This document shows, in pieces, positions 21,231 through 41,848 of a DNA stretch of 42,542 nt; the first letter of the stretch is position 1, and every line of letters begins with the position of its first letter. This DNA comes from Phycisphaerales bacterium. Its GTDB lineage: Bacteria > Planctomycetota > Phycisphaerae > Phycisphaerales > UBA1924. The translations under genes and the position numbers were made by a program. The notes beneath the pieces were generated by a model, which was not told where the DNA came from, made no database searches, and saw only the letters and a list, made by a program, of their open reading frames with translations. The stretch covers positions 1-42,542 of the forward strand of contig JALWOY010000192.1 in assembly GCA_027083355.1 (NCBI GenBank), read 5' to 3'.

Positions 21231-21296
21231 TCAACTGCGACTCGGCGGGATTCGTGCTCGGTCCGGTTGCATCGGGGCGGGAACGGGCGGCCCAGA

Positions 21297-21302: not shown

Positions 21303-21308
21303 CACGCC

Positions 21309-22713: not shown

Positions 22714-22792
22714 CGGGCCGTGGTTTCTGTTGTTGCGTTGTGGATTGATGTGTGGGTCGGCGGGCCGTGGCGGCGCTGTCGCCCCACCAAGG

Positions 22793-23562: not shown

Positions 23563-23611
23563 CCGGTTTTTTTGTACGCATCAGTGAGTATTTTATCACG
23601 GATTCACAAGA

Positions 23612-25051: not shown

Positions 25052-25070
25052 GTCAACGGGAGCATGGGTC

Positions 25071-26489
25071 ATGACCAAACTTGCGGTGATATTCGTTCCG
25101 TTGATGGCGTTATCCGGGTGTGCCTTGAGTCATCCAGTCGACCCCTATGACGGCATGCCGGCCTTCTGGAAGGGGCAGGTTGGCACCACCGAGACACCCA
25201 CGAGTCGCGGCGCCGTGGCCTTGGTCGAGCCGGACGGCCCATTGATGCTGGCGGAAGCGGTCCGGATCGCGCTGGCGAACAACCCGGAGACCGCGGCGAG
25301 GGGGGACGAGGTTCGGGCGGCGGCGGCGCAGAAGGACTTTGCCAAGGGCGAGGCGCTCCCGCATTTCAGCCTGGAAACGGATTACTCGCACTACCTCGAC
25401 AGCCAGCGCCTCGTTGCACCGAGCACGAACGGCCAGACCGGGGTGTTCGGTCGCGACATCGTCTCGGGCGGCGTTGTCATGCGGATTCCGTTGTACACCG
25501 GGGGGCGGATCACCAGCGAGATCGACGCCGCGGAACTGCTGACCAAGGCCGCGCAGCATCAGTTGGTACGGAGTCGGGAAGAGTTGGTGTTCAACGTGTC
25601 GAGCCTGTACTACAACATTCTGGCGCAGCGTCATGTCGTCGAATCGCTCCGGTTCAGCCAGCGGGCACTGGAGCGGCATCTCGAACAAGTCGAGCATCAG
25701 ATCGAGGCGCAGAAGGCCGCGAACGTGGATCGTCTGCGGACGCAGGTGCGGCTGGCGAACATCGATCAGCAGATCGTGGCGGCGCAGAACGTGCTGTCGG
25801 TGCAGCGTGAGGCGATGGCCGATCTGCTGGGTCTTGCGGAGGGTCACGCGGCGATCGAGATTGTCGGTGAACTGGAGGCCGACCCGCCGGCGGGGATCGA
25901 CCCTTCCCTGGCTGTCCGGCGAGCGTTGGCGCAGCGCGAGGATTTTCTGGCGGCTCAAGCGTCGCTGGAGGCTCAGGCCAGGGCCGTCGATGCGGCGCGG
26001 GCGGCGCGATGGCCCTCAATCTCTGGCGAGGCTTCTTATGGGGGGCGATGGGGCGTGGACCCGACGGTCCAGCCGGCGGGAACCGACCGTCTCGAGGATG
26101 TCGGGATGATCGGCTTCACCGGGCACATCCCTCTGTTCGAGGGCGGTCAGATCGTGGCCCGGATCCGCCGGGAACGCATGCGGTTGTCGGCCGCACGGCA
26201 GCGGCTGCGGGCGTTGGCCCTGCGGATTCAGCTGGATGTCAAGACCGCCCTTCTCAACATTGAGTCGACATACAAACGGGTTCAGGCCACCAAAGCCGCC
26301 ATCGAACAGGCGACGGAAAGCCTGCGCATCGAGCGAGAAAAATATGACTTGGGCAAGGGTTCGATCACCGACGTGCTCGATGCCCAATCCTCCTTGTTGT
26401 TCACGCAGACCAGTTACTACGCGGCCCTTTCGGACCACAACGTGGCCCTGGCGCAGTACCGACTGGCCGTAGGGGAGCCGTTGCAATGA
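25071..26489 (+). CDS. TolC-family outer-membrane efflux lipoprotein
   Basis: A 472-residue outer-membrane factor of an RND tripartite pump. The ATG at 25071 is preceded by GGGAG and gives a short signal peptide ending in LSGC, so the protein is probably lipidated, as in NodT/OprM-type channels. Two long alpha-helical repeats follow, visible as AEAVRIALANNPE (start of first repeat) and SLAVRRALAQREDFLAAQ (start of the second), with tunnel-forming coiled segments. It overlaps the next gene by an ATGA junction. Its place between the permease and the fusion protein puts it in the ars operon. Confidence 0.88.
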   Translation: MTKLAVIFVPLMALSGCALSHPVDPYDGMPAFWKGQVGTTETPTSRGAVALVEPDGPLMLAEAVRIALANNPETAARGDEVRAAAAQKDFAKGEALPHFSLETDYSHYLDSQRLVAPSTNGQTGVFGRDIVSGGVVMRIPLYTGGRITSEIDAAELLTKAAQHQLVRSREELVFNVSSLYYNILAQRHVVESLRFSQRALERHLEQVEHQIEAQKAANVDRLRTQVRLANIDQQIVAAQNVLSVQREAMADLLGLAEGHAAIEIVGELEADPPAGIDPSLAVRRALAQREDFLAAQASLEAQARAVDAARAARWPSISGEASYGGRWGVDPTVQPAGTDRLEDVGMIGFTGHIPLFEGGQIVARIRRERMRLSAARQRLRALALRIQLDVKTALLNIESTYKRVQATKAAIEQATESLRIEREKYDLGKGSITDVLDAQSSLLFTQTSYYAALSDHNVALAQYRLAVGEPLQ

Positions 26490-27682
26490 AACGCAGCATC
26501 GCCGTCTTGATCCGCGCCGTGCTTGTCCTGGTGGTCGTCGGGCTGATCGGCCTGGGCGGCGCCCGGCTGATCCAGAACAAGAAGCATGAACTCTCGGCCG
26601 CCCCGAAGTATGGGGTGCGACCCACACCTGTGCATGTGGTGAAAGCCGAGTTGGGCACGCTGACGCAAGACCGGACCTATCTCGGCGTCTGCGAGCCGGT
26701 CCGGCAAGCCGATGTGTCGGCAAGGATCACCGCGACCATCGATGAGGTTGCCTGTGACGAGGGCTCCACGGTCACGGCGGGCCAGGTCCTCATCCGCCTC
26801 GATGATCGTGAGATCCGGCAGAATATTGCCGAGGCCGAGTCCGAGATCGAGCGTGCCAGGTCGGATCTGACGGGCAACGAGGCGGTCGTCGAGTCGCTGA
26901 AACAGAGCGTTGCGTATTGGAATCGTGAAGCCGAGCGCGACAGGTCGCTGGCAGATCGGGGTGACATCCCCGGTTCCCAGGCCGAGGGAACACAGGAGAA
27001 GGCCAACGAGTTCACCGGTCGGTTGCTCGCGGCGCAGCAGCAAACCAGATCGCTCCGGCATCGGATCGAAAGCCTGCAGCGGCGCAAGGGTCAGCTGGAG
27101 ATCCAGTTGAGTTACTGCCTTGTCGAGAGCCCGTACGACGGCTTGGTGGTGCGCCGGCTCGTCGACCCGGGCGACCTGGCTTCGGTCGGCAAGACACTGC
27201 TGCGGGTCGAAGACCGTTCGAGTCTCAAGCTTTCATTCGATATCCCGCAACAGGACATGGAAGAGGTGCACGAAGGGCTTGGGCTCAGGTTCAAGGCGGA
27301 CGGGCGGGAGCGCCGGGGCGCTCTGACGCACCTGTATCCGTCGCTCAGCGCGGACCGCACGATTCGGGCCGAGAGCGTGCTGGGGCCCGAGGCCGCCGCG
27401 GGCCTGACCTGCGGCAGCTATGTGCCGGTATCGGTCGAGGTCGGCCGGATCGAGAATGCCGTGTTGGTGCCCAGCACCAGCCTGATCGAGGGCCCGGACG
27501 GCACGACCTATGTCTTCGTGGTGCGCGATGGCAAGCTGGAGCACCCCATGGTGACGGTGCTCGGCCGGAGCAAGGACCGGGCGGCGATCACGGGGATCGA
27601 GCCGGGCGAGCAGGTTGTCGTGAGCACCTATCTGGGCTGGGCGAACCTGTCCGGGGGGATGGCCGTGGAGCCGGTGCAATGA
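26486..27682 (+). CDS. RND membrane fusion protein (periplasmic adaptor)
   Basis: A 398-residue HlyD/AcrA-type adaptor joining the inner-membrane pump to the outer-membrane channel. One N-terminal hydrophobic segment (about 5-26) anchors or exports it. A barrel-sandwich (lipoyl-like) half motif is seen around DEGSTVTAGQVLIRLDD (about 90-106), then a helical hairpin (about 110-200) and the second half (SPYDGLVVRRLVDPGDLAS). A beta-barrel and membrane-proximal domain complete it. No His/Met-rich metal-binding segment is present. ATG start overlaps the preceding stop, and the end overlaps the pump start (both ATGA). Confidence 0.9.
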   Translation: MKRSIAVLIRAVLVLVVVGLIGLGGARLIQNKKHELSAAPKYGVRPTPVHVVKAELGTLTQDRTYLGVCEPVRQADVSARITATIDEVACDEGSTVTAGQVLIRLDDREIRQNIAEAESEIERARSDLTGNEAVVESLKQSVAYWNREAERDRSLADRGDIPGSQAEGTQEKANEFTGRLLAAQQQTRSLRHRIESLQRRKGQLEIQLSYCLVESPYDGLVVRRLVDPGDLASVGKTLLRVEDRSSLKLSFDIPQQDMEEVHEGLGLRFKADGRERRGALTHLYPSLSADRTIRAESVLGPEAAAGLTCGSYVPVSVEVGRIENAVLVPSTSLIEGPDGTTYVFVVRDGKLEHPMVTVLGRSKDRAAITGIEPGEQVVVSTYLGWANLSGGMAVEPVQ

Positions 27683-30600
27683 ACCTGACAAACTTTTCTC
27701 TGAAGAACCCCTACGCGGTGACGGCCCTTGTGCTCGTCGTGACGGCGCTGGGCCTGTTCGCGTTCTTCCGCACGCCCACGGATCTTTTTCCCAACACGGT
27801 CCCGCCGCAGGTGGTGGTGATTACGGTCGAGCCGGGGGCGGCGGCGAGTGATGTGTCCGACAAGATCACGCAGGTGATCGAGAAGGAGCTGAGTTCGATC
27901 AGCGGGTTGAAGAAGGTGGTCAGCACCAGCCGCGACGAGGTGTCTTCCGTCAACGCCGAGTTTTATTACGACAAGCCGATCGGCGAGGCGGTGGTTGATG
28001 TGCAGAACGCCATCAGCCGGATCCGTGCGACCTTACCCGACGACATCTTCGAGCCGCGGATCTACCGCATCACCGATGCCACGCGTCCGCTGCTGACCGT
28101 GGCCATCAGCCCCAAGGCCGGCAGCACGAAGACCTTCGCGGAGCTGCGCCTGCTGGCCGAGAACGAGATCATGGACGCGATCCTCCGCGTGCCGGGGATT
28201 GCGGACGTGGACATCTTCGGCGGATACCAACCCGAGGTCCGCGTGCATGTCCGCCGGGAGGATTTGTTCGCCAATAGACTCACGATCGCGCAGGTCGTCG
28301 GGGCGCTCTCCAGGCAGAACGTCTCCGCCCCGGCGGGCACGATCTACACCGACCGGAACGAGTTGCTGGTGCGGACGGTCGGGGAGTTTGCCGACCTCGA
28401 GACGATACGGGACCTGCCCATCGCCCGGGCCGGCGACGGGTTCATCCGCGTGCGCGATGTCGCCGATGTCGTGCTCGACCACCGGGAACAACGCAGTTTC
28501 TATCACGGCAACGGCAAGCGGGCGATTGCGATTAACGTGCTGCGCCCGGAGAGCGGGCCCACTGTCTCGGCCATCAGGAATTTCAAGGCCTTCCTGCCGA
28601 AACTTGAGGCGCGGTACCCCGACATCGACTTCCAGATCACCGATGATCAGCAGCCCATCATCGACGTCAACGTGCACGGCATGCGCGGCTCTCTGGTCGA
28701 TGCGGTCATCCTCACTGTGTTGATCATCTTTATATTTCTCGCCGATATGCGTGCGGCGGCGGTAGTGTCGATCAGCATCCCGCTCGCGTTCCTGACGAGC
28801 CTTGTTGTGCTGTGGTTCAGCCCGTACACGCTCAACATGGTCACGTTATCCGGGCTGATCATCGCGGTCGGGATCGTGCTGGATGCGTCCATTGTCGTGC
28901 TGGAAAACATCTACAGGCACTATCGCGAGATGGACCGGCCCGATGCCCTCAAGGCCGCCCGTGAGGGGACGGGAGAAGTGGCCCTGGCCGTGATGGGGGG
29001 AACGCTGACCACGGTGATCGTGCTCATCCCGGTGATGTTCACCGGCGGGTACACCCAGCAGACCATGCGCCCCCTGAACCTGATGATTGCCTCGACGATC
29101 CTCGCCTCCCAGGTGGTCGCGATGACCGTCGTGCCGCTGCTGGCCTCGAAGTTGCTGGGGCGGGTTTCGGGTCGTCGCAACATCATCGAGCGGGTCTTTA
29201 CCAAGACCGATGCGGGCGTATCCCTCCTGGCGAGGCTGTACCTGTGGATTCTGCGCAATGCGCTGCGCTGGCGCGTGCTCACGCTGATCCTGGCGGCGGC
29301 ACTCTTCGTCGTCACGATGAAGCTCGTCCCGCCGCTCATCGGCGGAGAGCTGATGCCGAAGATGGACACCGGGATCGCGTTGATCGAGTTCGACTGCCCC
29401 TCCGATCGCGCCCCCGCGCAGGTCGAGAAGGTCCTCGGCCGGATCGAACAGATGGTCTACCGGCAGCCCGGAGTGGAGATGGTCTCTTCGATCATCGGAT
29501 CCGAGCCGGGACAGATCAGTTTCGGCGGCGGCGGCGCAACAGCCCAATCCGGCAAACTCACGATTCACCTCGTTGATCGCCAACCCCGGTCCGAAACGAT
29601 CTGGCAGATCGAAGACAAATGGCGTAACGAGTTGCGCCATATCGCCGGTGTGCGGACGTTCCGTGTCAGCGAGTTCGGCGCGACACCGCTCTCGACCACC
29701 AGGGCCCCGCTCGACATCATCATCAGCGGACCCGATTCCCGGGTGGTCAGCCAACTGGCGGATCAGAGCCTGCACGCGCTCAAGGGGTTGCCGGGGCTGG
29801 TCGACGTCCGGCGGAGCTGGTACTTCGACAAAACCGAGCAGCACGTCGAGATCGACCCGATGCTCGCGAGGTTCTACGGCACGTCACCCTCGGAAGCGAC
29901 ACACGAACTCAAGGCCGCCATCAAGGGTGTGCCGGGCACCACCATGCGGCTGGCCGGGTATCTGGACATCCCGATCCGCGTGCTATACGCGGCGACCGAC
30001 ATCGCCTCGCCCGCCGATCTGGAGCAGGTGTACATCCCCACCCGCGTCGGTTCAACACCGCTGCGGGCGATGGCGACCATCACCGCCACGACCGATCAGC
30101 CCTTCATTACCCGTGAGCGATTGAACAACACGATCGACATCACCGGGCAGAACCACACGCTCACCATCGCGCAGGTGGCGAAGATGGCCGGGAAGCGCCT
30201 GGCGAAGATCAAGACGCCCGCGGGTTACTCCATCAAGGTCTCGGGCACCGCGGCGGACATGAAGGTCGGCAAGCAGGAAATGGGCAAGGCGTTGCTGATC
30301 GGGATCGTTCTGCTCTACTTCCTCCTGCTGGCGATGTTCAAGTCGTTCAGCCACCCGCTCGTCATCATGTCCGCCATCCCACTGGCGATCGCCGGCGCGA
30401 TGTGGGGCCTGCTGCTCTTCGACAAGCCCATGTGCAAGCCCGCGACGATGGGGCTCATCCTCCTGGGCGGCACGATCGTGAACAACAGCATCCTCCTGCT
30501 GGACTTCATCTTCGAAGCACGGAAGCGCGGCATCCCGAAGAACGAGGCCATCCTCCAGTCCGTGCGTCTGCGCATCCGCCCGATCCTGATGACGACGTTC

Positions 30601-30837
30601 GCCACCAGCATCGGGCTGGTGCCGCTCATCTTCGAGATGGCGGTGGGTCTGGAGCGCATGAGCCCGCTCGGCATCGTCGCCGCCACGGGGCTGATCATCG
30701 GGACGTTCCTGACCATGATCGTGATCCCGGTCGTGTATTCGAGCGTGGACAGCTCGGTCGTCCGGGCGGGCCGTGCCCTCCGCTGGTTCATGGGCGTCCA
30801 GCCGAGAGCCGGCACACCGAAGAGCTCCCCGGGATGA
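27679..30837 (+). CDS. RND-family efflux pump subunit
   Basis: A 1052-residue proton-driven RND transporter of normal length, with the first membrane helix at about 10-28 and two blocks of helices (about 335-540 and 870-1030) around periplasmic loops. The helix-4 motif is AVGIVLDASIVVLEN: one Asp in the proton relay, as in heavy-metal (HME) types, rather than the Asp-Asp pair of drug (HAE1) types. FFRTPTDLFP near the start and the duplicated fold are typical. Substrate is not determined; position in an arsR-led operon suggests arsenicals or antimonials, which would be unusual for RND pumps. Start coupled to the adaptor by ATGA. Confidence 0.9.
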   Translation: MNLTNFSLKNPYAVTALVLVVTALGLFAFFRTPTDLFPNTVPPQVVVITVEPGAAASDVSDKITQVIEKELSSISGLKKVVSTSRDEVSSVNAEFYYDKPIGEAVVDVQNAISRIRATLPDDIFEPRIYRITDATRPLLTVAISPKAGSTKTFAELRLLAENEIMDAILRVPGIADVDIFGGYQPEVRVHVRREDLFANRLTIAQVVGALSRQNVSAPAGTIYTDRNELLVRTVGEFADLETIRDLPIARAGDGFIRVRDVADVVLDHREQRSFYHGNGKRAIAINVLRPESGPTVSAIRNFKAFLPKLEARYPDIDFQITDDQQPIIDVNVHGMRGSLVDAVILTVLIIFIFLADMRAAAVVSISIPLAFLTSLVVLWFSPYTLNMVTLSGLIIAVGIVLDASIVVLENIYRHYREMDRPDALKAAREGTGEVALAVMGGTLTTVIVLIPVMFTGGYTQQTMRPLNLMIASTILASQVVAMTVVPLLASKLLGRVSGRRNIIERVFTKTDAGVSLLARLYLWILRNALRWRVLTLILAAALFVVTMKLVPPLIGGELMPKMDTGIALIEFDCPSDRAPAQVEKVLGRIEQMVYRQPGVEMVSSIIGSEPGQISFGGGGATAQSGKLTIHLVDRQPRSETIWQIEDKWRNELRHIAGVRTFRVSEFGATPLSTTRAPLDIIISGPDSRVVSQLADQSLHALKGLPGLVDVRRSWYFDKTEQHVEIDPMLARFYGTSPSEATHELKAAIKGVPGTTMRLAGYLDIPIRVLYAATDIASPADLEQVYIPTRVGSTPLRAMATITATTDQPFITRERLNNTIDITGQNHTLTIAQVAKMAGKRLAKIKTPAGYSIKVSGTAADMKVGKQEMGKALLIGIVLLYFLLLAMFKSFSHPLVIMSAIPLAIAGAMWGLLLFDKPMCKPATMGLILLGGTIVNNSILLLDFIFEARKRGIPKNEAILQSVRLRIRPILMTTFATSIGLVPLIFEMAVGLERMSPLGIVAATGLIIGTFLTMIVIPVVYSSVDSSVVRAGRALRWFMGVQPRAGTPKSSPG

Positions 30838-30931
30838 TGGACGCCCTTGGCATGAAACGGTCGTGACGGTTCGGCACAACACCGAACCAGCCGGAACAGG
30901 AAACAGCAGATTCACACACGGAGACAACACA

Positions 30932-31183
30932 ATGAAACAAATCAAAATCCTTGGCACGGGATGCCCGAAGTGCCAAAAACTCGCCGAGAACACGAAAACG
31001 GCCGCCGATCAGCTCGGGATCGGATGCGAGATCGAGAAGGTCACCGAGATCAGCGAGATCATGAAGTTCGGCGTGATGCTGACGCCGGCTCTGGTCATCG
31101 GTGATCAGGTCAAAGTATCCGGCACCGTCCCGAGTGTCGAGCAGATCAAGTCCATGCTGCAGGAAGACCAAGCCGCGAGTTGA
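30932..31183 (+). CDS. arsE: ArsE-like small redox-active disulfide protein
   Basis: An 83-residue thioredoxin-fold protein of the TM0996/MTH895 type. The redox motif GCPKCQKL lies at about 10-17 and the cis-proline segment GVMLTPALVI follows. Such proteins commonly accompany ArsP-like permeases, and in arsEFG loci the corresponding ArsE takes part in efflux of trivalent aromatic arsenicals. GGAG stands eight bases upstream of the ATG. The 94-bp gap from the pump gene has no promoter I can identify, so it probably belongs to the same transcript. Confidence 0.85.
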   Translation: MKQIKILGTGCPKCQKLAENTKTAADQLGIGCEIEKVTEISEIMKFGVMLTPALVIGDQVKVSGTVPSVEQIKSMLQEDQAAS

Positions 31184-31223
31184 CAGACTCGAATTCCGGT
31201 TCCAACCGAAGGAGTCCCGAAAA

Positions 31224-31778
31224 GTGAAGCCGAATCTACACAAGTTCGTGACGCTCGTCCTCGTCGCAGCGGCTGTGGCCGTCGTCCTGCTCGTGAAGCA
31301 GAGAGAAACACGATCCGTATCGGAAGCACGAACAGGCCCGTCTTCCGTCGCCGTTGTCGACAAACAAGCGAGTGTTCCGGCGGCGGAGCCGAAGCCGGAG
31401 GTCTCCACGGCAGCCGCAGACTCTCCCGAATCCTCGGACAAAGCGACAACCCGTATGGCCGCGCACGTTGGGCTGCCGAAACTCATGGACCTCGGTGCGG
31501 ACAAGTGCATCCCGTGCAAGAAGATGGCACCGATCCTCGAGGCGATGCGGAAGGACTACGCAGGACAGCTCGACGTCGTTTTCATCGACGTCTGGAAGAA
31601 TCATCAGGCGGCGGAGCAACACCACATCAGGCTCATCCCGACCCAGATCTTCTTCGACGCGCAAGGACACGAACTGTATCGGCATGAGGGCTTCTTCTCA
31701 CGCGAAGACATCCTCGACAAGTGGAAGGAACTCGGCCATGTGTTCACCACGCCGGCCAAGAAAAAGTCGGATGGGTGA
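31224..31778 (+). CDS. arsF: ArsF-like membrane-anchored thioredoxin
   Basis: A 184-residue protein with an N-terminal membrane anchor (about 6-24), a Ser/Ala/Glu-rich linker (about 30-80) and a thioredoxin domain in the periplasm. The active site is KCIPCKKMAPIL; the cis-Pro loop is RLIPTQIFFD. GTG at 31224 is chosen because GGAG lies nine bases upstream; this start puts the anchor at the N-terminus. It is set between the ArsE-like and ArsG-like genes, as in arsEFG clusters, and probably exchanges electrons with the CcdA-like protein next to it. Confidence 0.82.
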   Translation: MKPNLHKFVTLVLVAAAVAVVLLVKQRETRSVSEARTGPSSVAVVDKQASVPAAEPKPEVSTAAADSPESSDKATTRMAAHVGLPKLMDLGADKCIPCKKMAPILEAMRKDYAGQLDVVFIDVWKNHQAAEQHHIRLIPTQIFFDAQGHELYRHEGFFSREDILDKWKELGHVFTTPAKKKSDG

Positions 31779-31838
31779 AAACCAAGGATGTGAACCCGGT
31801 GAATCTCGCCCCTCGCCCGGCCTCTCGCAGATACCCCA

Positions 31839-32540
31839 ATGGAACAACTCTTTGAGAACCTGAGCCACGCCGTCGAAGGATCGCCGTTCGTCGCGATCGC
31901 TGCGGCCTTTGCCTGGGGCGTGCTGAGCATCCTGCTGAGCCCCTGTCACCTTTCGAGCATCCCGCTGATCATCGGGTTTATCAGCGGCCAGGATGGTGTG
32001 GTCACATTCCGCCGCGCCTTGACTCTCTCCACGCTGTTCGCCGTCGGCATCCTGATCACGATCGGCATGATCGGTGTGATCACCGCGGCCGCCGGGCGGA
32101 TGATGGGCGACATCGGTGCCTACGGAAACTATTTCGTCGCGGTCATCTTCCTTGTCGTGGGGCTTGTTCTGCTCGGGGTCATCCCCATGCCGTGGTCCGG
32201 CCCGGGACGGGTCGGCATGAAACGAAAGGGCGCACTTGCCGCGTTCATCCTCGGGCTCGTCTTCGGCGTCGCGCTCGGGCCGTGCACGTTCGCCTATATG
32301 GCTCCTATGCTCGCCGTCACGTTCAAGTTCGCATCAACACGTTTGGCGTATGGCATCCTGCTTCTCGTCGCCTACGGCACGGGCCATTGCGCCGTGATCG
32401 TTCTGGCGGGGGCAAGCACCGAGTTTGTGCAGCGCTACCTGAACTGGAACAACAAATCCGGGGGCGCCGCCGTGTTGCGTGGGGTGTGCGGGTTTCTCGT
32501 GATCCTCGGCGGACTGTATCTGATCTACGCCGCGCCTTGA
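31839..32540 (+). CDS. arsG: ArsG-like CcdA/DsbD-type membrane protein
   Basis: A 233-residue polytopic protein of the CcdA/DsbD transmembrane family, about six segments. The paired cysteines expected in this family are in LLSPCHLSSIPLI (first half) and GVALGPCTFAYM (second half); they relay electrons across the membrane. Its close relatives next to arsE and arsF are called ArsG and are proposed permeases for aromatic arsenicals. Which of the two activities applies here cannot be told from sequence. Last gene of the operon; the ATG at 31839 has a weak ribosome-binding site. Confidence 0.83.
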   Translation: MEQLFENLSHAVEGSPFVAIAAAFAWGVLSILLSPCHLSSIPLIIGFISGQDGVVTFRRALTLSTLFAVGILITIGMIGVITAAAGRMMGDIGAYGNYFVAVIFLVVGLVLLGVIPMPWSGPGRVGMKRKGALAAFILGLVFGVALGPCTFAYMAPMLAVTFKFASTRLAYGILLLVAYGTGHCAVIVLAGASTEFVQRYLNWNNKSGGAAVLRGVCGFLVILGGLYLIYAAP

Positions 32541-32833
32541 TGGAGCGTCCGCCTTCTTTGATCGCAGGGATACAGTTTCGGGATGGCACGCATCGACCAG
32601 TGGTGTTACACCAATTGACTACCCCCATTTTTTCTGTACTAGTCCCTATGGAAGTCTTGGTTCAAGTGCGCTTGTGCCCGTTTCTGTACCAGCCGCAATA
32701 TCAATCACGGATGAAATCCGGGCGAGAGGTATTCGCACTTGCAGATGGATCGCAGGCGTGTCTTGGTCAATGACCGCCACGCCGCGCCGACGCCGTCGAG
32801 CAGATCGTCGTAGCCGTCGTCGCCTCGCCAATG
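32541..32833. other. Intergenic region after the ars operon
   Basis: No recognised gene. A perfect small hairpin TGGTGT-T-ACACCA lies near 32600-32612, with TTTTTT at 32628-32633, too far for a standard terminator. TTGACT (32615-32620) is followed after 16 bp by TACTAG, a weak promoter-like pair. Directly below it an ORF of 41 codons runs from ATG 32648 to TGA 32773; it has no recognisable domain and may not be expressed. Confidence 0.35.
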
Positions 32834-32932
32834 CCGGATTTTTGCTATTTTCGGGCGAAAAATCCGGCGTGAGCCCCTCGCTTCACATCAGCGCAAGAAA
32901 AAGCGGAAACCCCTTGTTTTCAAGGACTTCCG
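32834..32932. repeat. Double-hairpin element flanking the ars operon, right copy
   Basis: About 99 bp, near-identical to 22793-22890. The first hairpin has a perfect 10-bp stem (CCGGATTTTT / AAAAATCCGG, 32834-32867); the second (32904-32932) matches the left copy. Compared with the left copy, the fifth stem pair changed from T-A to A-T on both sides, a compensatory change. On the minus strand, hairpin two is followed by CTTTTTCTTG and would terminate transcripts coming from the tRNA remnant just upstream. Confidence 0.8.
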
Positions 32933-32939
32933 CTCTGAA

Positions 32940-32981
32940 TCGGGGTGAGAGGATTCGAACCTCCGACCTTCTCGTCCCGAA
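32940..32981 (-). pseudogene. 3' part of a tRNA-Pro(CGG) gene, probable att scar
   Basis: On the minus strand the sequence reads from an anticodon loop (TTCGGGA, anticodon CGG) through the 3' anticodon stem, variable loop, a T arm (GGAGG-TTCGAAT-CCTCT) and the 3' acceptor strand CACCCCG with discriminator A. The 5' half is absent: upstream sequence does not pair with the anticodon or acceptor stem. The break at the anticodon loop is where tyrosine recombinases cross over in tRNA genes. A terminator hairpin follows directly on its 3' side. Confidence 0.72.
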
Positions 32982-33051
32982 CACGATACTAAACAGCGTT
33001 TCTGGGCCATGAGGGCCGATTCAGGGAACAGAAGTGGACACAAACGGACAG

Positions 33052-33198
33052 TTACGCTGGATTCGAATCCGGCGGATTCGAAGGCCACGCTGCCCACCAT
33101 TCGGACGAGTCTGGCCCTTCGCCAGCTTCAATCCGTCGCTTGGCCTCAGATAGCCTCCATTCAGCCGCCTGAAGTTCCTCGGGCGTGAATTTTTCGGT
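33052..33198 (-). pseudogene. Unassigned open fragment
   Basis: In the same frame as the ISL3 remnant, and directly after its TGA, the minus strand reads 48 codons including TPEELQAAEWRLSEAKRRIE before a stop at 33052-33054. The helical, coding-like composition suggests the tail of an unidentified protein. No start codon is present. The other two frames here also stay open, so this is weakly supported. Confidence 0.25.
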
Positions 33199-33332
33199 TC
33201 ATCCGGCATTTCCGGGGTGTGCTCCCGGGAAGGCTGCTCTGATCTTGAGGAAGAAGTAGTCTTGGTCGCGGTATCCATACGCCATGCGTTTGATGACCTT
33301 GATCTTGTTGTTGATGCCCTCGATCGAGTTCT
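33199..33332 (-). pseudogene. ISL3-family transposase, C-terminal fragment
   Basis: The minus strand encodes EGINNKIKVIKRMAYGYRD followed by a DYFFLKIRAAFPG segment, the characteristic end of ISL3-type (DDE_Tnp_ISL3) transposases, up to TGA at 33199-33201. Everything upstream, including the catalytic residues, is missing. It is joined to an IS3 OrfA fragment within about ten bases at 33321-33332. Confidence 0.72.
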
Positions 33333-33514
33333 TTGAGCCGCCGGACTTCCTCGGCCTTCATCCTGCCTTACTGGTTCCGCCAGCGGTGGAAGGTCGCCTC
33401 GCTGACGCCGAGGGCCTGGATGACCTGGGCGACGGGCCGCCCCGCCGCCAGCATCGCGTCGGCCTCACGGAGTTTGGTCACGATCTGTTCCGGACTGTGT
33501 CTTGTTTGCTTCAT
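33333..33514 (-). pseudogene. IS3-family OrfA fragment with internal stop
   Basis: From ATG at 33514, preceded by GGAG, the minus strand reads a helix-turn-helix typical of IS3 OrfA (HSPEQIVTKLREADAML, then VAQVIQALGVSEATFHRWRNQ). A TAA at 33368-33370 interrupts it where relatives have a tyrosine codon, and the frame then continues as MKAEEVRRLKEL before the join to the ISL3 fragment. OrfB is absent. A decayed element. Confidence 0.75.
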
Positions 33515-33725
33515 CAGGAGTCTCCTCGGCCCGACCGGAGCCGCTCGGGACTCTCATAGCACATGGATCAGGATTTGGGGAGCGGGCCACCGGCGTCCCG
33601 GCACCGCATACAAAGCCCCTGTACAGTAGAGAACGAGGTGATGCTCGATAATTCATTTTCGTGCGTGATCTTATCTCGAAGATCATGTGGCGTATCAGGA
33701 TTCACCGCTGAGGCCGCGTCTTCGC

Positions 33726-34190
33726 TCAATCTTCCGAGGGGTGGAGACGCCGCCAAGCCTCGTCGAACGGCACGACCTCGCCCTGCATTTCGGCTCGCGC
33801 AGCCTCGGCCCCGGCCTTGGTCGCGAAAGCCGCCACGTTCGAGCCCATCGGCGACCGGAGTTCCGGGGCCAGCAGGAAAAACGCTTCCGAGGTCTTCAGC
33901 CACTCGTGCGTCGTGTAGTCATGCGACCAGCGGTCGAGGATCACGAGATCGGGGTGATCGGTCTCGTAGTTGACTTGGCAGTTGAAATCGTCGAACAGCC
34001 TCGCCTCGGGGCCGCGCGGGCCCTGGACGATCGTTGCCGTCGCCCAGCGATCGTCGCTGAGGATCATGTTGCAATAATCACAGACCGAATCGCCGAGCAG
34101 CACCTTCGGCGGGGCGTCTGCGGGCTGTTCACCGCAACCGCCGAGGGGCGCCAGCGAAACCACCACGAGAAGCAGCCCGAGAGACCTCAT
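33726..34190 (-). CDS. nosL: NosL copper-chaperone lipoprotein
   Basis: A 154-residue periplasmic lipoprotein that delivers Cu(I) for the CuZ site of nitrous oxide reductase. The signal peptide ends in a lipobox (PLGGC, Cys19). The copper-binding motif CDYCNM (Cys37, Cys40, Met42) matches the CxxCxM of NosL, and FDDFNCQ follows. The ATG at 34190 overlaps the nosY stop (ATGA); the much longer open frame upstream is a shadow of nosY and nosF. Last gene of the nos operon. Confidence 0.9.
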   Translation of the reverse strand: MRSLGLLLVVVSLAPLGGCGEQPADAPPKVLLGDSVCDYCNMILSDDRWATATIVQGPRGPEARLFDDFNCQVNYETDHPDLVILDRWSHDYTTHEWLKTSEAFFLLAPELRSPMGSNVAAFATKAGAEAARAEMQGEVVPFDEAWRRLHPSED

Positions 34191-35077
34191 ACCGATTGCC
34201 TCCGTACAAAGAGCACCATCGCGGCGGCGAGCGGGATCACGATCCAGGCGACCATCGTCGATGCGAGCAGCCAAGGCAGGACGGCACCGAAAGTGTGCGA
34301 CGCGTAATCCCCGACCGGCCCGAGCACGTCGAGCGAGGCGTTCATATTCACGATGACCCCCATCTTGAATGATTGGAGGGGGTTGAGGATCGCGACTCCG
34401 AAGATCTCCTGCACGCGGAGTTTGAAGATGATCGAACTGGCCATCAGCCCGAGGTCGCTCACGAACACGAGCGCGAGCCAGACGAACAGCGCGACCCCAG
34501 TCGAGACCGACGTCCGGCGCGAAACGACCGAGATCACGAATCCGACCGAGAGCATGCCCAAGGCGAGCATGGCCGTGAAACCGATCAGCAGGATGTACGC
34601 CCCGACGCCCACCCCGCCGGCCCGCCACGCGAGCAGGCCCGCGCTGACGCCGAACCCGATGCACAGCGAGCACACCAGCGCGAGGGCGAGCCCAGCGTAT
34701 TTGCCCAGGAGCACCTGCGTCCGCGAGACGGGCTGGGCGAGCAGATAGAGCAGCGTGCCCCGTTCGCGTTCGCCCGCGATCGATCCGGCGCCGGCCGTCA
34801 GTGCCATCAGCGGGACGATGAGCATGATGAGGTTGAGCAACCCCGCCGCGGTGCGCCCGAAGCCCGCGAAGCCGCTCGAACCGACCCCGCTGAGCGACAG
34901 GAACGAAACCCCGACGGCGAGCACCGTGAACGCGAGCGTGTAGAGCAGGAACCACCGGCTCGCGATGGCGTCGCGGAACTCGCGCCGGGCGAACATCGCG
35001 ATGCCGCCAACGGTGGTGGCCGCACGGAGCGGTGAAGACGCGGCGTTGTTCCCGGCGGGCGCAGCCATCGTGCTCAT
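34187..35077 (-). CDS. nosY: NosY ABC transporter permease
   Basis: A 296-residue inner-membrane protein with about six hydrophobic segments, of the ABC-2 permease type. The conserved SIAGERERGTLLYLLAQPVSR segment that contacts the ATPase is present at about 103-122. With NosF and NosD it forms the NosDFY complex that supplies sulfur/copper for CuZ assembly. Its start overlaps the nosF stop, and its stop overlaps nosL. The first 28 residues are longer than usual and Ala-rich; a later start (for example the Met at position 28) is possible. Confidence 0.9.
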   Translation of the reverse strand: MSTMAAPAGNNAASSPLRAATTVGGIAMFARREFRDAIASRWFLLYTLAFTVLAVGVSFLSLSGVGSSGFAGFGRTAAGLLNLIMLIVPLMALTAGAGSIAGERERGTLLYLLAQPVSRTQVLLGKYAGLALALVCSLCIGFGVSAGLLAWRAGGVGVGAYILLIGFTAMLALGMLSVGFVISVVSRRTSVSTGVALFVWLALVFVSDLGLMASSIIFKLRVQEIFGVAILNPLQSFKMGVIVNMNASLDVLGPVGDYASHTFGAVLPWLLASTMVAWIVIPLAAAMVLFVRRQSV

Positions 35078-35955
35078 GATTCAACCCCCGGGATCTCCAT
35101 GTCGTCGAGCACCTCGATGTTGAGCACCTCGATTCGGTGCTTCGCCAGCGTGTTGATCGGCTCGGCTTTGCGGTCACGCGGGACCGCGACGCACAGCCCG
35201 TTGCCGTTCAGATGCACCGCGTGGCCCGCCTCGCGGAGCACCCCGGCGGCCTCGGACTCCTTCGCCATCGACAGGAAAAGACGGATCACCTGCACCGGCT
35301 TCTCCGTCGGCCAGAGACCCCGCGGCGTTGTGTCCCGCTCGACACGGCCGTGCTCGAGCACGAGCACACGGTCGGCCAGCGAGATCACCTCGTCCGGGCG
35401 GTGCGACGCGAACACCAGCGTCTTGCCCGAGGCTTTCAGGTGCCGGAGGGTCTCGATCACCTCGCCCCGGCCGGCCGCGTCGAGGTTCGAGGTCGGCTCG
35501 TCCAGCACGATCAGCGGCGGGTCGCTCAGCAACGCGATCGCCAGCGCGAGACGTTGCTTCATCCCCCCCGAGAGATCGCGGACCCGTTTGCGCTCGTGCC
35601 CGCTCAGCCCGACGGCGGCGAGCGACTCGGCGGCGCGCCGCCCCGGCACCCGCCGCAACCCCGCGAAGAACCCCATCGCCGACCCGAGCCGGGTGTCGTC
35701 GTGGAACGCGAGTTCCTGCGGGACATACCCGGTGAGGGCCCGGGCCTGCCGCCCCCGCCGCTGCACGTCGATGCCCCCGATGCTCGCCCTGCCCCGGAAG
35801 CGGATGACCCCGAGCAGGCAGCGGATCAGCGTCGTCTTGCCCGCCCCGTTGCTGCCCCACAACGCGAGCGAACACCCGTTGCCAAGCTCAAACGAAATAT
35901 CAGAGACGGCCTCCACCGGTCCGAATCGTTTGGTGATGTGCTCCGCTTTGATCAT
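35074..35955 (-). CDS. nosF: NosF ABC transporter ATPase
   Basis: A 293-residue cytoplasmic ATPase. Walker A is GSNGAGKTT (about 34-42), the Q-loop VPQE, the signature LSGGMKQR, Walker B LIVLDEPTSNLD and the switch His in ASHRPDE. A C-terminal extension of about 70 residues beyond the ATPase core is normal for NosF. It energises the NosDFY maturation complex. ATG at 35955 overlaps the nosD stop (ATGA). Confidence 0.92.
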   Translation of the reverse strand: MIKAEHITKRFGPVEAVSDISFELGNGCSLALWGSNGAGKTTLIRCLLGVIRFRGRASIGGIDVQRRGRQARALTGYVPQELAFHDDTRLGSAMGFFAGLRRVPGRRAAESLAAVGLSGHERKRVRDLSGGMKQRLALAIALLSDPPLIVLDEPTSNLDAAGRGEVIETLRHLKASGKTLVFASHRPDEVISLADRVLVLEHGRVERDTTPRGLWPTEKPVQVIRLFLSMAKESEAAGVLREAGHAVHLNGNGLCVAVPRDRKAEPINTLAKHRIEVLNIEVLDDMEIPGVES

Positions 35956-37331
35956 TCCCGCCCCCCCGGTGCGACCGGGATCCCCGGCGATCGTCCGAAC
36001 ACCACTGTAAGCCCCCCGGACGCCAGCAACAGCCCCGCCGCCAGAGATGCCATCACGGGCGCGGCCCCGTCCGCGGGGGGCGAGGCGAGTTTGATCTCGG
36101 GCGGCCTGGCGAGCGGAGCCGGATCGACCAGCACGGATTTCGGCTGGAGCTCCGGCAATGCCCGTGCGGTGAACTCGATCGCCTGCTGTGCCGGGCTGTG
36201 AACGAACAGCCTGAGGTTGGGCTCCACGGCGAGCATCTCGTGAAAGAGGCTCCTCGGCTCGTACGCGACGTCGCCGATCCCGTCGCCGTCGAGATCGAAC
36301 CCGGTGTAATCCGACCAGTAATTGCCGAAACCGTCGCGGCTGAACGAATTTCTCGTCAGCCGCCCGCGTCCGTTCGATTCCGCGGGTTCCTCGTTTTCCA
36401 TGAAGGCGTTTCGGGTGAAGACATTCTCGTGCGTGTTCGGCGTGGCGAGCAGGCCGACCTCGTTGAACGCGATCATGTTCTGCTCGACGGTCCCGGTGGC
36501 ACCGATCGAGGACGGGCTGTTGTCGATATACATCCCGACGCGGTTGGCCAGCAGGGCGTTGCCCCGGACGACGATATCGTCGCAGTCCTTCAGCCCGATC
36601 CCGTAGCCGCTTGCCCCGCGATGGCTGAGCATGCGGTTATTGATCAGGGTGATCCGGTTGCTGTACATGAGATAGATGCCGACGGAGTTGCCGGTCAACT
36701 CGTTGCCTTCTAGCACGGTGTCGTGGCTGTACATGAAGTGCAGCCCGTAGCGGCTGTCCTTCACCGTGTTCCGTGTGATGTGCAGATTCTCCGAATACCA
36801 GAACACCATGTCACGCGAGGAAAGGACCGTGTTGTCCTCAACGGTGCAGTTGTGGCTCCACCATAAGCGCAGACCGTCACCACGCCGGGCGGGCTCAAAG
36901 TTCTTGCACGCGATTCTGTTGCCGCGGATGACCGAATCCGACGCCTGCCGCAGGTCGATCCCGAACAGGCTGTCTTTGATGGTGTTCGACTCGATCACGG
37001 CGTGACCCGCCAGGACACGGATGCCCGCCGGTTCGGCCGTGACGTTCTCACCCGAGCCACGGATCGTGCACCCACGGATCGTCACGCCCTCGGCCAGCAC
37101 CTCGACGACGGTCCCGCTCTCCATCCCATCGAAGATCGCCCCTTCCTGCCCGTCGAGCACGACCGGCTTGTCGATCACGAGGTTGCCCTCGTAGACGCCG
37201 GGCGGGATCAGGACCACACCGCCCGGCTCCGCGGCGTCGATCAACGCCTCGATATCGGACATCGGGTGGGCCGCGAGCGGGGCCGCCGCCCCGAGAAGCA
37301 CGAATAAGATTGCGACCGCCCCCCTGCGCAT
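35952..37331 (-). CDS. nosD: NosD periplasmic copper-site maturation protein
   Basis: A 459-residue protein with a Sec signal peptide (about 1-21, ending ALAAHP-like) and a right-handed beta-helix made of repeated GIRV, VIESNTI, VIRGNRI and NRITLINNRM units. SRDGFGNYWSDYTGFDLDGDGIGD closes the helix, as in NosD proteins. Residues about 428-448 form a C-terminal hydrophobic segment that could anchor it. NosD, with NosFY, is needed for CuZ assembly. It starts 13 bp after the nosB-like gene and overlaps nosF. Confidence 0.9.
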   Translation of the reverse strand: MRRGAVAILFVLLGAAAPLAAHPMSDIEALIDAAEPGGVVLIPPGVYEGNLVIDKPVVLDGQEGAIFDGMESGTVVEVLAEGVTIRGCTIRGSGENVTAEPAGIRVLAGHAVIESNTIKDSLFGIDLRQASDSVIRGNRIACKNFEPARRGDGLRLWWSHNCTVEDNTVLSSRDMVFWYSENLHITRNTVKDSRYGLHFMYSHDTVLEGNELTGNSVGIYLMYSNRITLINNRMLSHRGASGYGIGLKDCDDIVVRGNALLANRVGMYIDNSPSSIGATGTVEQNMIAFNEVGLLATPNTHENVFTRNAFMENEEPAESNGRGRLTRNSFSRDGFGNYWSDYTGFDLDGDGIGDVAYEPRSLFHEMLAVEPNLRLFVHSPAQQAIEFTARALPELQPKSVLVDPAPLARPPEIKLASPPADGAAPVMASLAAGLLLASGGLTVVFGRSPGIPVAPGGRE

Positions 37332-37344
37332 GCGTCGCCCCCGA

Positions 37345-38019
37345 TCAGGCCGCCTTCCCCGCGGAAGACTGCATCTGCTTGACCAGCGGCAGGTAGGCCC
37401 GCCGATGGAAATACAGCGCGATAATCAGCACGACCGAGGCGACCGTGGCCAGGATCAGCCCGACCCCGGGGGTCGCCATCGTCTCGAACTGCCCGATACC
37501 GCCCTTGCCCAACGCCGTCGGCACGAACGGTTTGACCGCGTTGGACAGCGGCGCGTCCGGGTCGAGGTTCAGCCCGAAGTGCCTCATCCAGAGGTGAAGA
37601 TCGACCAGAAAGATCACCGGGAACAGGATCACCGGAGCAACCAGAAGCACGGACCAACGGGTGTGAACATACGCGGCCAACTCCAGCATGATGACGAACC
37701 CAATCATGATGAAGACACCCGATGCGCGCTCGAGTTTCGCCGCCTCGAAGAGCGACTTCATCCCGATGTAATGGTTCAACCCGTCGATCTCGGCGACATC
37801 GCCCTCGAGCTTGTTCACGTACGCCGTCATGTGCAGACCGTCCGGGTACTGCGGTGCCTTGAGTTCCATCTGCCAGTACGGCAGGAAAAGTGAAACCAGC
37901 AGAAGCACCCTCGCCAGCAGCAGAAGAAAACCGGGCGTGCCGTAGCGGATGGAGTTCTTCGAAAGGTCCGCCGGATCAATGCGCGGGCCGAGGATGCGGT
38001 CGAGAAATGTCGCGCCCAT
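37345..38019 (-). CDS. NosB-like membrane protein
   Basis: A 224-residue integral membrane protein with about four to five hydrophobic segments: about 29-48, 100-118, 122-145 and 182-202. I see no cofactor motif. Its place between nosZ and nosD matches nosB of clade II nos operons (order nosZ-nosB-nosD, as in Wolinella), whose role is unknown. Sequence identity to known NosB was not tested, so the name is by synteny. GGGAGG lies six bases upstream of the ATG. A soluble loop (about 49-95) holds conserved-looking aromatic and charged residues. Confidence 0.65.
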   Translation of the reverse strand: MGATFLDRILGPRIDPADLSKNSIRYGTPGFLLLLARVLLLVSLFLPYWQMELKAPQYPDGLHMTAYVNKLEGDVAEIDGLNHYIGMKSLFEAAKLERASGVFIMIGFVIMLELAAYVHTRWSVLLVAPVILFPVIFLVDLHLWMRHFGLNLDPDAPLSNAVKPFVPTALGKGGIGQFETMATPGVGLILATVASVVLIIALYFHRRAYLPLVKQMQSSAGKAA

Positions 38020-38095
38020 GATGCCTCCCGATGATGTGTCAGGCGTGGTTCAGTGAATCCGCGGCCGGGTGTTCTCACGCCCGGCGCGGTAGAAC

Positions 38096-40081
38096 TTATT
38101 CAGGCTCGACCAGCAGGTAGCCCATCATCTCCAGGTGCAGAGCGGAGCAGAACTCCGAGCAGTAGAACGGGAACGTCCCCGGGATGTCGGCGTCAAACTC
38201 GATCGTCTCCGTCTCGCCGGCTTCGAGCGAGGCGGTGATGTTGTACACCGGCACCGCGAAACCGTGCGTCGCGTCGAACGCACGCTCGATGTTCGTGATA
38301 TGCCAGCGGACGTGATCACCCTGTTTCACCTTCACATGCTCGGGGTTGAAGTGGCTGCGGATCGCCGTCATGTAGACATCGACCGTGCCGTCATCGTTCC
38401 GCTGCACACGCTCCATCTTGGACTTGGGTGCCATCGGGTCGATGTTCTGCTCGACCGTATCCCAGCCGACCTCGGGATAGATCTTCCACGGGTTCAGCTT
38501 GTCGGCTTTGATGATCTGGGCATAGTGCGGCTCGCCCACGCCCATCGGCATGTCGTAGATCACCGGCATGTTCGTGCCCTGATGGCTGATATCCAGCAAC
38601 TGGAGGTTCTGCGGCAGCAGCGGGCCCGTCGTCAGGAACCGGTCCACAGACCACTTGTTCAGCGACACGAGATACTTCCCGTCCGGGCTGACAGTATCGC
38701 CCTCCGCCGCCGAGATGTGCCCCACGTTGTAGTGCACCGGGGTCTTCTGCACCAGCGTCCAGTCCGGCTCGGGCGTGGACGAACCGTACGAACCGCCGAG
38801 CGTCCAGCGCGCGATCGCCGAGTCGAGGAACAGCGACGTGTACGCGTAGCCGTCCGGGCCGAACTGCGTGTGCAGCGGGCCGAGGCCCACTTCGACCTGC
38901 GCCTCGACCACGCTGTCGAAGTCGAGGATCGGCAGCCCGAAATCATCCTTGCCCGAATACGAACCGCTCGCGATCGCCTTCTTGATCTTGTCGAACGAGT
39001 AAACCGTCACGTGCGGGTCCAGCTTGCCCGAAACGACCATGAAATCACCCTTCGGCGTCACGTCCACGCCATGCGGGCTCCGCGGCTCCGGGGTCAGGTA
39101 AATCAGGCCCTCGTCAATCGAGGTCTTCAGCGTGATGACGGGGAACCCCTCGATCATCTCCGCCTTGCCCGCTTCGTACACCTTCACCGCCTTCTTCCAG
39201 TTGATGATGTGCAGGAAGTCCGTCGCGTTGCGGCTCGCGCCCGCCTCGAACGGCGGGTTCTTCTCCTCGATGCCCCCCGTCGCCATCTCCGTGTTCAGCG
39301 AGTTCAGGAACATGTACCCGTCGCTGACCAGCTTGCCCGCATCCGCCAGATCCTGCCAATAAGGCGGCAACTCCAGCGCGAACGATTTCGATTTGTCGAT
39401 CCGCCCCTTCTTGCGGTCGAACTTCCACAGCGTGACCGATCCGCGGTACTTCTCTTTGTACTGCGAGATCGGGGCGTACTCGGAACCGAACGGAACGGAA
39501 TACTGCCCGCCCTCGATGATGTAGTCCGTGTTGGGCGTCACGAACGTCCCACCGTGATCGCTGACCGTCAGCGGGTTCTTGACGATCTGCTTCGTCTCCC
39601 AGTCACGCAGGTCGATCACCGCCACACGGGCGTTGATCTTGTCGTTGATGAACAGGAACTGCCCGTCGTAGTCCCCGTTCGTCTCGGAGAGCGCCGGGTG
39701 GTGCGCGTCGCCCCAGAGGTTGGGCTTGCCCTTCGGGAAACCCGCTTCGAGGATCTCGTTGCCCACGCCGAACCCCCAGCCCTGCCAGGATTCGGGGGTG
39801 AACACCGCGATCGAACGCAGCAGACGCATGCTCGGCAGGCCCACCGCGAAGACCTGACCCGCGTGCCCGCCCGAGGCGAACATCACATAATCGTCGTGCT
39901 GACCGCTCGGCGTATAGGTCTTCGCCGCCGCCACGAGGTCCTGGGTCGTCAGCCCCCGTTCCTTGGCGATCGCCTCGACATCACGCATCGACTGGGCGTG
40001 CGCCGCCGAAGACGCCGCGCAGGCGATCGACACCGCGAACACGGGCCGAACGCGGTTCCAGATTCGTTTTCTGCCGCTCAT
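38096..40081 (-). CDS. nosZ: Nitrous oxide reductase, clade II (Sec-exported)
   Basis: A 661-residue periplasmic copper enzyme reducing N2O to N2. The N-terminus has a Sec signal (cleaved about AHA-QS) with no twin-arginine motif, which is typical of clade II. The seven His ligands of CuZ are visible in GDAHHPALS, SDHGG, SPHGVD, GPLHTQFG, NVGHIS and GEPHYAQ. The C-terminal cupredoxin domain carries the CuA motif CSEFCSALHLEMMG with an upstream His in DATHGFAV. I chose the second ATG (40081) because AAAGGA lies seven bases before it; the first (40096) has none. Flanked by a dihaem cytochrome gene and nosB, nosD. Confidence 0.96.
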   Translation of the reverse strand: MSGRKRIWNRVRPVFAVSIACAASSAAHAQSMRDVEAIAKERGLTTQDLVAAAKTYTPSGQHDDYVMFASGGHAGQVFAVGLPSMRLLRSIAVFTPESWQGWGFGVGNEILEAGFPKGKPNLWGDAHHPALSETNGDYDGQFLFINDKINARVAVIDLRDWETKQIVKNPLTVSDHGGTFVTPNTDYIIEGGQYSVPFGSEYAPISQYKEKYRGSVTLWKFDRKKGRIDKSKSFALELPPYWQDLADAGKLVSDGYMFLNSLNTEMATGGIEEKNPPFEAGASRNATDFLHIINWKKAVKVYEAGKAEMIEGFPVITLKTSIDEGLIYLTPEPRSPHGVDVTPKGDFMVVSGKLDPHVTVYSFDKIKKAIASGSYSGKDDFGLPILDFDSVVEAQVEVGLGPLHTQFGPDGYAYTSLFLDSAIARWTLGGSYGSSTPEPDWTLVQKTPVHYNVGHISAAEGDTVSPDGKYLVSLNKWSVDRFLTTGPLLPQNLQLLDISHQGTNMPVIYDMPMGVGEPHYAQIIKADKLNPWKIYPEVGWDTVEQNIDPMAPKSKMERVQRNDDGTVDVYMTAIRSHFNPEHVKVKQGDHVRWHITNIERAFDATHGFAVPVYNITASLEAGETETIEFDADIPGTFPFYCSEFCSALHLEMMGYLLVEPE

Positions 40082-40155
40082 CCGGGTTCCTTTCATTTCG
40101 TTGACTGATCACTGTGCGGTGATCTCAAAGGTGTACACAAAACGGCCCGAATCGA

Positions 40156-41088
40156 TCACGACCCCAGGGCCTTCTTCTGCAATGCACGGATATACGTCAC
40201 GATCTGCTGGAGTTGCTCGTCGGTGATCGCCGGGTTGCCGCCCTTCGGGGGCATGTCGACCCCCGTCGTGTTGGCCGCGTCCCAACTCGGGCGACCGCTC
40301 TTGATGAAGTTGATCAGTTCCTTGTCCGTCTTCCCTCGGACGAACCCGCTCGTCGTCAGCGGGAGCCCAAGGTTCGGCAGCCCCGCCGCATCCGCCCCGT
40401 GACACGCCGAGCATGATGCAATGAAGATGTCGTGCCCAGGATGATCCGGCAACTCGATCGAGGCGGCCTGCGTCGTGCCATCCTCCGACTTCAGGTTCCA
40501 CGCATCGACCGAGGCCGGCGGCGCGGACGGGTCCTGGATCGAACGAAGAAACGCGATCACGGCCCTGATCTGTTCATCGGAAAGGTTCTGAGCCCCCCGC
40601 GGCGGCATCGCCGCCCCCGTCGTGTTCGCCGGGTCCTCGGGGGGGCGGCCGTTGACGACGAGCGTAAATAACTCGTCGTCTGTCTTGCTCTGGACAAACG
40701 CGCTGTTGCGGAGCGGCTTGCCGAGGTTCATGATCCCCTTCGCATCCGGGCCATGACACACGACACAACTCTTCTCGTAAACGGTCCGCCCGACTTCAGC
40801 CGGGGTTTGCGGGCCCGCCGATGACCCACCCCCGGCCACCGGAGCCCCGCCAGCGGCCACCTGAGCCCCGGCCACCGCGCCACCGGTGTGCATCATGCCT
40901 CGGGGCGCCAGCGGGTCGGGCTTCAGCAACACGATCACCCCGATCAACACCGGCAGCGTCAGCGTGAAAACCGCCGCCATGGCGTGTGCCGCGCCCTTAT
41001 ATGGGTCCGCGGGTTGAAGCGGAAACCCCGGATAGCCGAGCGGTTGTGGGTTATCGGGCTGAGGCGAACTCGAATCCGGTGCTGTCAT
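40156..41088 (-). CDS. Membrane-anchored dihaem cytochrome c of the nos operon
   Basis: A 310-residue c-type cytochrome. After a Pro-rich start comes one membrane segment (about 38-55), a Gly/Ala-rich linker (65-95), and two cytochrome c domains with haem sites CVVCH (108-112) and CSACH (226-230). Axial Met ligands are likely in AAMPPRGAQ and VDMPPKGGN, about 50 residues after each site. It is the probable electron donor to NosZ, like the NosC proteins of clade II operons. The ATG at 41088 has AGGAAG just upstream; an earlier ATG-type start (41121) lacks it. It precedes nosZ by 74 bp. Confidence 0.88.
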   Translation of the reverse strand: MTAPDSSSPQPDNPQPLGYPGFPLQPADPYKGAAHAMAAVFTLTLPVLIGVIVLLKPDPLAPRGMMHTGGAVAGAQVAAGGAPVAGGGSSAGPQTPAEVGRTVYEKSCVVCHGPDAKGIMNLGKPLRNSAFVQSKTDDELFTLVVNGRPPEDPANTTGAAMPPRGAQNLSDEQIRAVIAFLRSIQDPSAPPASVDAWNLKSEDGTTQAASIELPDHPGHDIFIASCSACHGADAAGLPNLGLPLTTSGFVRGKTDKELINFIKSGRPSWDAANTTGVDMPPKGGNPAITDEQLQQIVTYIRALQKKALGS

Positions 41089-41147
41089 CGTGCTTCCTCG
41101 GATGTTGTGGGGGATGCGCAAAATGGATTACTTGGTTCAGTATTCGG

Positions 41148-41180
41148 AGTATATCCGCGATTTCATAAAGGTCTAGTCAA
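41148..41180 (-). promoter_or_regulatory. Possible nos operon promoter with long spacer
   Basis: TTGACT (41175-41180, overlapping the end of the Rrf2 gene) and TATACT (41148-41153) on the minus strand are both good hexamers but are 21 bp apart, longer than the usual 16-19. Long-spacer promoters depend on activators that twist DNA. GATATA one step upstream gives 19 bp. The pair lies about 60 bases before the cytochrome ATG. Confidence 0.35.
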
Positions 41181-41704: not shown

Positions 41705-41848
41705 GGGATGCACAAGTGGATAAGTGCATGCAGTGGTTCACTATTATCCCCCAATGATCCCGGATCAAGCCTAACAGGCCGCTAAGCATCCTGTCGATCG
41801 TTTTCCGCTGCGTGTATCTTCTTGCGGTCTTGAGCCTGGAGGCGTCTG

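Follow-up and report, generated by a model that had tools for sequence, protein, structure and literature searches.

The window, i.e. the whole stretch of 42,542 nucleotides that was analysed, is contig C192 of a Phycisphaerales genome (G000), a 3.4-Mb draft in 234 contigs that is probably a metagenome assembly and in which a chimeric contig or a mixture of strains is possible. Two blocks of core genome, an exopolysaccharide/exosortase cluster on the left and the nos operon on the right, border a mosaic of about 11 kb (about 22.7-33.7 kb). This mosaic contains a block of arsenic, efflux and thiol genes, remnants of insertion sequences (IS) and a fragment of a tRNA-Pro(CGG) gene (Table 1). The fragment lies between two arms that we relate to IE-B, an element family defined in this analysis by its left terminus, its right terminus and a recombinase ORF located about 155 bp after the tRNA. 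By inspection, we take the transposase fragment abutting the coreless copy of the left terminus to be IS5-like and the remnant interrupting the left terminus to be IS630-like. The remnants that truncate the right end are presumably ISL3-like (33223-33330) and IS3 OrfA-like (33340-33530).

Table 1. Features of the window, from left to right
Feature	Coordinates	Strand	Basis
Conserved exopolysaccharide/exosortase cluster, core genome left of the mosaic	4801..22700	+	Collinear in G001, G002, G008
Second IE-B left-terminus copy, coreless; direct repeat of 32819-32932	22778..22890	-	89% identity; joined directly to the transposase fragment
IS transposase N-terminal fragment abutting the coreless terminus	22891..23012	-	Translation MKRRLVTDALWKRVQPLIPKKPPDQRGGRPR
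Acquired block: ArsR regulator, ArsP permease, TolC/HlyD/RND efflux, two thioredoxins, DsbD-like protein	23239..32540	+	Pfam
IS transposase gene 3' remnant interrupting the left terminus	32697..32816	-	94% identical repeat ending at the edges of contigs C202, C230, C233; translation
IE-B left terminus: terminator hairpin (~32898-32933) and second imperfect palindrome	32819..32939	-	96% to C157:49747-49922
Attachment core, 3' 42 nt of tRNA-Pro(CGG), anticodon loop to discriminator base	32940..32981	-	Exact match to the intact gene on C54
IE-B right terminus (arm), abutting the core; supported by statistics	32982..33101	-	Aligns to IE-B right ends of G076, G126
Transposase remnants truncating the IE-B right end	33223..33530	-	Translations; 82% DNA match to a G041 contig-edge repeat
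Conserved nos operon and downstream gene, core genome right of the mosaic	33687..41713	-	Order conserved in relatives

The fragment reads TTCGGGACGAGAAGGTCGGAGGTTCGAATCCTCTCACCCCGA on the minus strand (32981-32940). All its 42 positions are identical to the 3' part of the tRNA-Pro(CGG) gene at C54:4402-4446 (45 bp aligned, 100% identity), which ARAGORN calls intact and which is the sole intact copy in the draft. The second-closest 42-mer within the window differs at 16 positions, and a chance origin of the match is therefore excluded. Neither ARAGORN nor Rfam found a complete tRNA in the window, and an Rfam scan of the site for an intact tRNA or another known RNA family returned nothing, even at E<=1. 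The anticodon loop is a known crossover subsite of tyrosine integrases in tRNA genes. The core starts at the first base of this loop, as do the junctions of seven relatives (G008, G026, G021, G073, G076, G126 and G133). Furthermore, an identical 42-bp repeat bounds the IE-B elements of G126 and G076 and prophage-type elements in G008 and G026. Hence, the fragment is indeed the attachment core of a tyrosine integrase at tRNA-Pro(CGG), as the first-pass annotation had proposed from the lone 3' part of the gene. That annotation also rightly saw no integrase, and the window has no recognisable recombinase. The 5' half of the tRNA is absent at the site, and the 5' strand of the anticodon stem, i.e. 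the left core-binding half, is missing from the junction. Given the lack of a recombinase, the window site is a relic junction rather than an element.

The left flank of the core carries the conserved hairpin GCGGAAGTCC...GGCTTCCGC that follows the core at IE-B left ends. Downstream of their tRNA-Pro core, nine relatives have this flank as well (77-148 bp aligned, 80-94% identity); a tenth match of the search, in G185, corresponds to a different flank and was left out. The left terminus is followed by the recombinase ORF in G126 and G076 and by a decayed ORF in G065 and G073, and it occurs with no recognised recombinase in G001, G003, G133 and G163. In G126, the intact tRNA, with its core, is followed by the flank and the recombinase. 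At a distance of 21.6 kb, another core in the same orientation precedes a terminator of a different kind. This far-end terminator, CTTTC...GAGCCCCTCGACGAG...CGTCGAGGGGCTTTTTC, is of the type seen directly after the intact tRNA-Pro in four relatives with no element at this site (G002, G035, G031 and G032). The same layout extends over 24.1 kb in G076. Since the native terminator of G126 has been displaced to the far end of the element, the hairpin beside the window fragment is element-borne, and we rejected the left flank as a candidate native terminator. The terminator located to the left of the window core is therefore the left end of an IE-B. The hairpin that the first-pass annotation had noticed on the 3' side of the fragment is thus present; its native origin is not sustained, nor is the view that original chromosome lies on this side, where the IE-B end gives way to an acquired block.

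The recombinase ORF expected about 155 bp past the tRNA 3' end is absent from the window according to tblastn; an IS remnant occupies its place, and no remnant of the recombinase was found in the window or on C157, the contig that holds another copy of this flank. A repeat like 'GGTACAGAAAATGGGGGCAGGTCA', which to us is presumably reminiscent of the REP sequences of REP-associated transposases, is common to window positions 32600-32690 and to C157 at about 49.9-50.0 kb.

On the other side of the core, the right arm (120 nt) was compared with attachment arms of relatives by a shuffle test. It scored 59.5 against the IE-B right end of G076 (shuffles 24.3 +/- 5.1, z 7.0) and reached z 4.0 against that of G126; none of 500 shuffles attained the score in either case. 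Eight other attachment arms, of prophage type and others, gave no significant score (z 0.1-1.8). BLAST with the 120-bp arm did not recover the IE-B match, and the assignment thus comes from the shuffle test with these two relatives. These statistics support the window right arm being an IE-B right end. With both arms assigned to IE-B ends, the junction would therefore read IE-B right end / core / IE-B left end, which is the order found in attP and at the joints between tandem copies. Such tandem arrays at tRNA-Pro are directly visible in G073, where one 3.26-Mb contig carries three cores in direct orientation, at 1144437, 1173764 and 1178773. The earlier proposal that the DNA to the right of the fragment is an insert is thus correct for the sequence immediately adjacent, which appears to be an element terminus, but not for the nos operon.

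A different element occupies the intact gene. On C54, a gene encoding a tyrosine integrase (PF00589) lies directly downstream of the intact tRNA-Pro(CGG). C157 holds a second 3' fragment of tRNA-Pro, preceded by terminase, portal and tape-measure genes and by AAA/SNF2 and DUF499 genes with PbeA/HmaC-like PADLOC hits. The left end on C54 and the right end on C157 correspond to the arm pairs of the elements of G008 and G026, so that C54 and C157 would belong to one prophage of roughly 54 kb; no overlap of contig ends joining them was found. The intact tRNA-Pro(CGG) with a nearby integrase that the first-pass annotation had suggested looking for therefore exists, but it belongs to a prophage that ends on C157. 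Since the right end of this element is on C157, the window fragment would not be its other end; the window copy is on a separate contig, divided from the intact gene by gaps in the assembly. The prophage (C157:36001-54149, C54:1-13000) carries defence-like genes (PbeA-like, HmaC-like and AAA_15). On C157, its attR is followed by the same IE-B left terminus as in the window. Directly after this terminus, a CRISPR array, Cas1 and Csm6 are found (about 50.0-51.2 kb), which are possibly IE-B cargo. Another element, of 22.7 kb, was observed in G001 (C64:1-22850); it has its own integrase and carries GH127 and trypsin-like genes, and its end is a chimeric tRNA-Pro fragment, after which comes an IE-B left terminus.

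Within the mosaic, the arsenic/efflux/thiol block is acquired. Of 60 relatives, only two, which belong to other families, have its DsbD gene; in these two, arsR, arsP, the thioredoxin genes and dsbD are collinear. The nos operon (34187-41713) shows another pattern: it is present, in conserved order, in 24 of 36 family relatives, and the neighbouring gene on the left side of nosY, which reaches about 33.7 kb, is also conserved. In the 15-20 kb around nos in eight relatives, every core-like sequence had at least 17 mismatches. The combination that would mark a nos island, i.e. a patchy operon bounded by attachment cores, was therefore not found. Moreover, the presence of tRNA-Pro fragments in relatives does not depend on nos, which is in substance what the first-pass annotation had itself named as evidence against its nos insert. 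The nos operon and the exopolysaccharide cluster are on different contigs in relatives, and their adjacency here is therefore probably due to rearrangement. The exopolysaccharide cluster includes an XhoI-type restriction endonuclease gene (PF04555, 6.5e-79) and a DNA methylase gene (window 19534-21230), an insert that G001, G002 and G008 lack at their syntenic loci.

We consider it probable that the window fragment, read as IE-B right end / core / IE-B left end, is an internal joint of a tandem array within an IS-damaged mosaic. The attP core of IE-B, consisting of the 3' 42 nt of the tRNA, would recombine with the chromosomal tRNA-Pro(CGG). Integration would rebuild the 3' half of the tRNA and supply the terminator of IE-B; the tRNA would still be transcribed and terminated, and the native terminator would be pushed to the far end of the element. 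Repeated insertion at the regenerated tRNA would produce a tandem array in which older elements are pushed away. The window junction would have formed in such an array and would then have been moved by IS activity. Both brackets of the acquired block being IE-B left ends in direct orientation, this block may represent the interior of an IE-B copy. However, the IE-B cargo of relatives is defence-related, unlike the arsenic/efflux block of the window, which counts against this reading. The lack of the IE-B recombinase in G000, where no functional IE-B is seen, and the relatives that have the left terminus but no recognised recombinase also count against it. Because the recombinase has been lost and no intact tRNA-Pro lies beside the junction in the assembly, the latter is most likely an inert relic.

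An unlikely but serious alternative is that an IE-B circle or an attP-bearing fragment was captured by homologous recombination or IS action, giving the same junction at a place where no tandem array ever existed. Right end, core and left end do follow each other in the exact order of attP, and the 5' half of the tRNA is missing here. Furthermore, directly repeated copies of the left terminus lie on both sides of the segment 22891-32818, a pattern expected from insertion by homologous recombination. Against capture stand the tandem arrays seen directly at tRNA-Pro in G073 and the stacking of prophage and IE-B on C157 of the same genome. It is more doubtful still that the fragment and about 300 bp of its left flank are a copy of the attR locus of C157 that arose by segmental duplication or as an artefact of assembly or strain mixture, with no integrase action. 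The two loci share core and flank at 96% in a 234-contig draft with IS repeats at nearby contig edges, but their right arms differ, that of the window being specific to IE-B right ends. Moreover, the position of the break coincides exactly with the recombination boundary, and a third, more diverged copy of the left terminus is located on the same contig.

Two further readings have very little probability. The island proposed by the first-pass annotation, with its attR at the fragment, native chromosome on the left and a body including nos on the right, agrees with the orientation of the 3' fragment, with the terminator that follows it and with the IS fragments to its right. However, nos is conserved in the family and was never near the tRNA-Pro core in the eight relatives checked; in addition, the left terminator is element-borne and the acquired side is the left one. 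Just as improbable would be a second attR of the C54/C157 prophage family, even if the core is identical and the integrase of that prophage is present in this genome: the right arms, which are conserved among C157, G008 and G026, show no match to the arm in the window (z 0.9-1.8). An array joint of IE-B thus remains our preferred reading of the window. The case illustrates how a comparison of both arms can place a 42-bp tRNA scar in an element family, which here corrected a plausible but wrong view of nos as island cargo.

In relatives, IE-B elements carry various anti-phage systems. For instance, the 21.6-kb IE-B of G126 encodes a type III restriction-modification system, DarT/DarG (DarTG), PDC-S11 and an HKD+Snf2 helicase, and the 24.1-kb IE-B of G076 encodes a prokaryotic Argonaute, PDC-S28 and a canonical integrase. 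Their recombinase ORF of about 440 aa was not found in G000, nor in plasmids and viral contigs, and that of G126 has no match in Pfam or NCBIfam. Distant members of the recombinase family do match PF00589 (up to 2.8e-9), and through them and the C-terminal LxH...Y motif the G126 protein is indirectly related to tyrosine recombinases. Across the order, members are located downstream of tRNA-Pro, Asp, Lys, Val, Leu and Arg genes, on the same strand; loci of this family also include tmRNA, Ser and Gly genes.

The Box I arginine is a textbook catalytic requirement of tyrosine recombinases. In a sequence alignment of 12 family members, the Box II Arg is kept, and LxH and Tyr are kept in most, whereas the catalytic Arg of Box I is missing at the aligned position in all 12; nor was it found in the G126 recombinase. 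A single-sequence structure model of the latter had a pLDDT of 36, and a PDB profile search was uninformative. Judging from the alignment, the Box I Arg is apparently lacking from this tRNA-adjacent recombinase family, which annotation libraries have missed. We tentatively propose that IE-B belongs to an undescribed tRNA-targeting, defence-carrying family whose recombinases, despite lacking the Box I Arg, insert with precision into a wide range of tRNA and tmRNA genes across the order and swap the terminator of the host tRNA for that of the element. If these enzymes are active, the textbook requirement becomes testable.

IE-B itself appears to be undescribed, whereas element-element junctions at tRNAs are of an already known kind. 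Tandem arrays in tRNA genes are a known but minor class of Islander-type islands (Hudson et al. 2014, PMC4383910). These islands share with IE-B a displaced 3' tRNA fragment with an anticodon-loop boundary, a regenerated tRNA, a tyrosine recombinase beside the regenerated gene, and tandem arrays. The window copy differs from them since it has no recombinase and is detached from the intact tRNA, and its displaced fragment runs into the end of another element instead of native chromosome. The elements of the C54/C157 prophage, G008 and G026 have the same 42-bp core and target gene as the window, but the prophage differs from IE-B by its left and right arms, its integrase (PF00589) and its terminase, portal and tape-measure genes. 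The IE-B elements of G126 and G076 resemble mobile defence hotspots, such as those of phages and satellites (PMC9122126), in carrying anti-phage systems between element ends. They differ in that phage or satellite structural genes were not recognised among the scanned IE-B proteins and the recombinase has no Pfam match, and the window copy has an arsenic/efflux block that may belong to IE-B.

Prophages and defence-carrying elements thus stack at tRNA-Pro(CGG), a hotspot of integration in this bacterial family. A 3' fragment of tRNA-Pro(GGG), broken within the anticodon stem, was also observed in G016 (C31; L079 5533), which suggests that this sister isoacceptor is a target as well.
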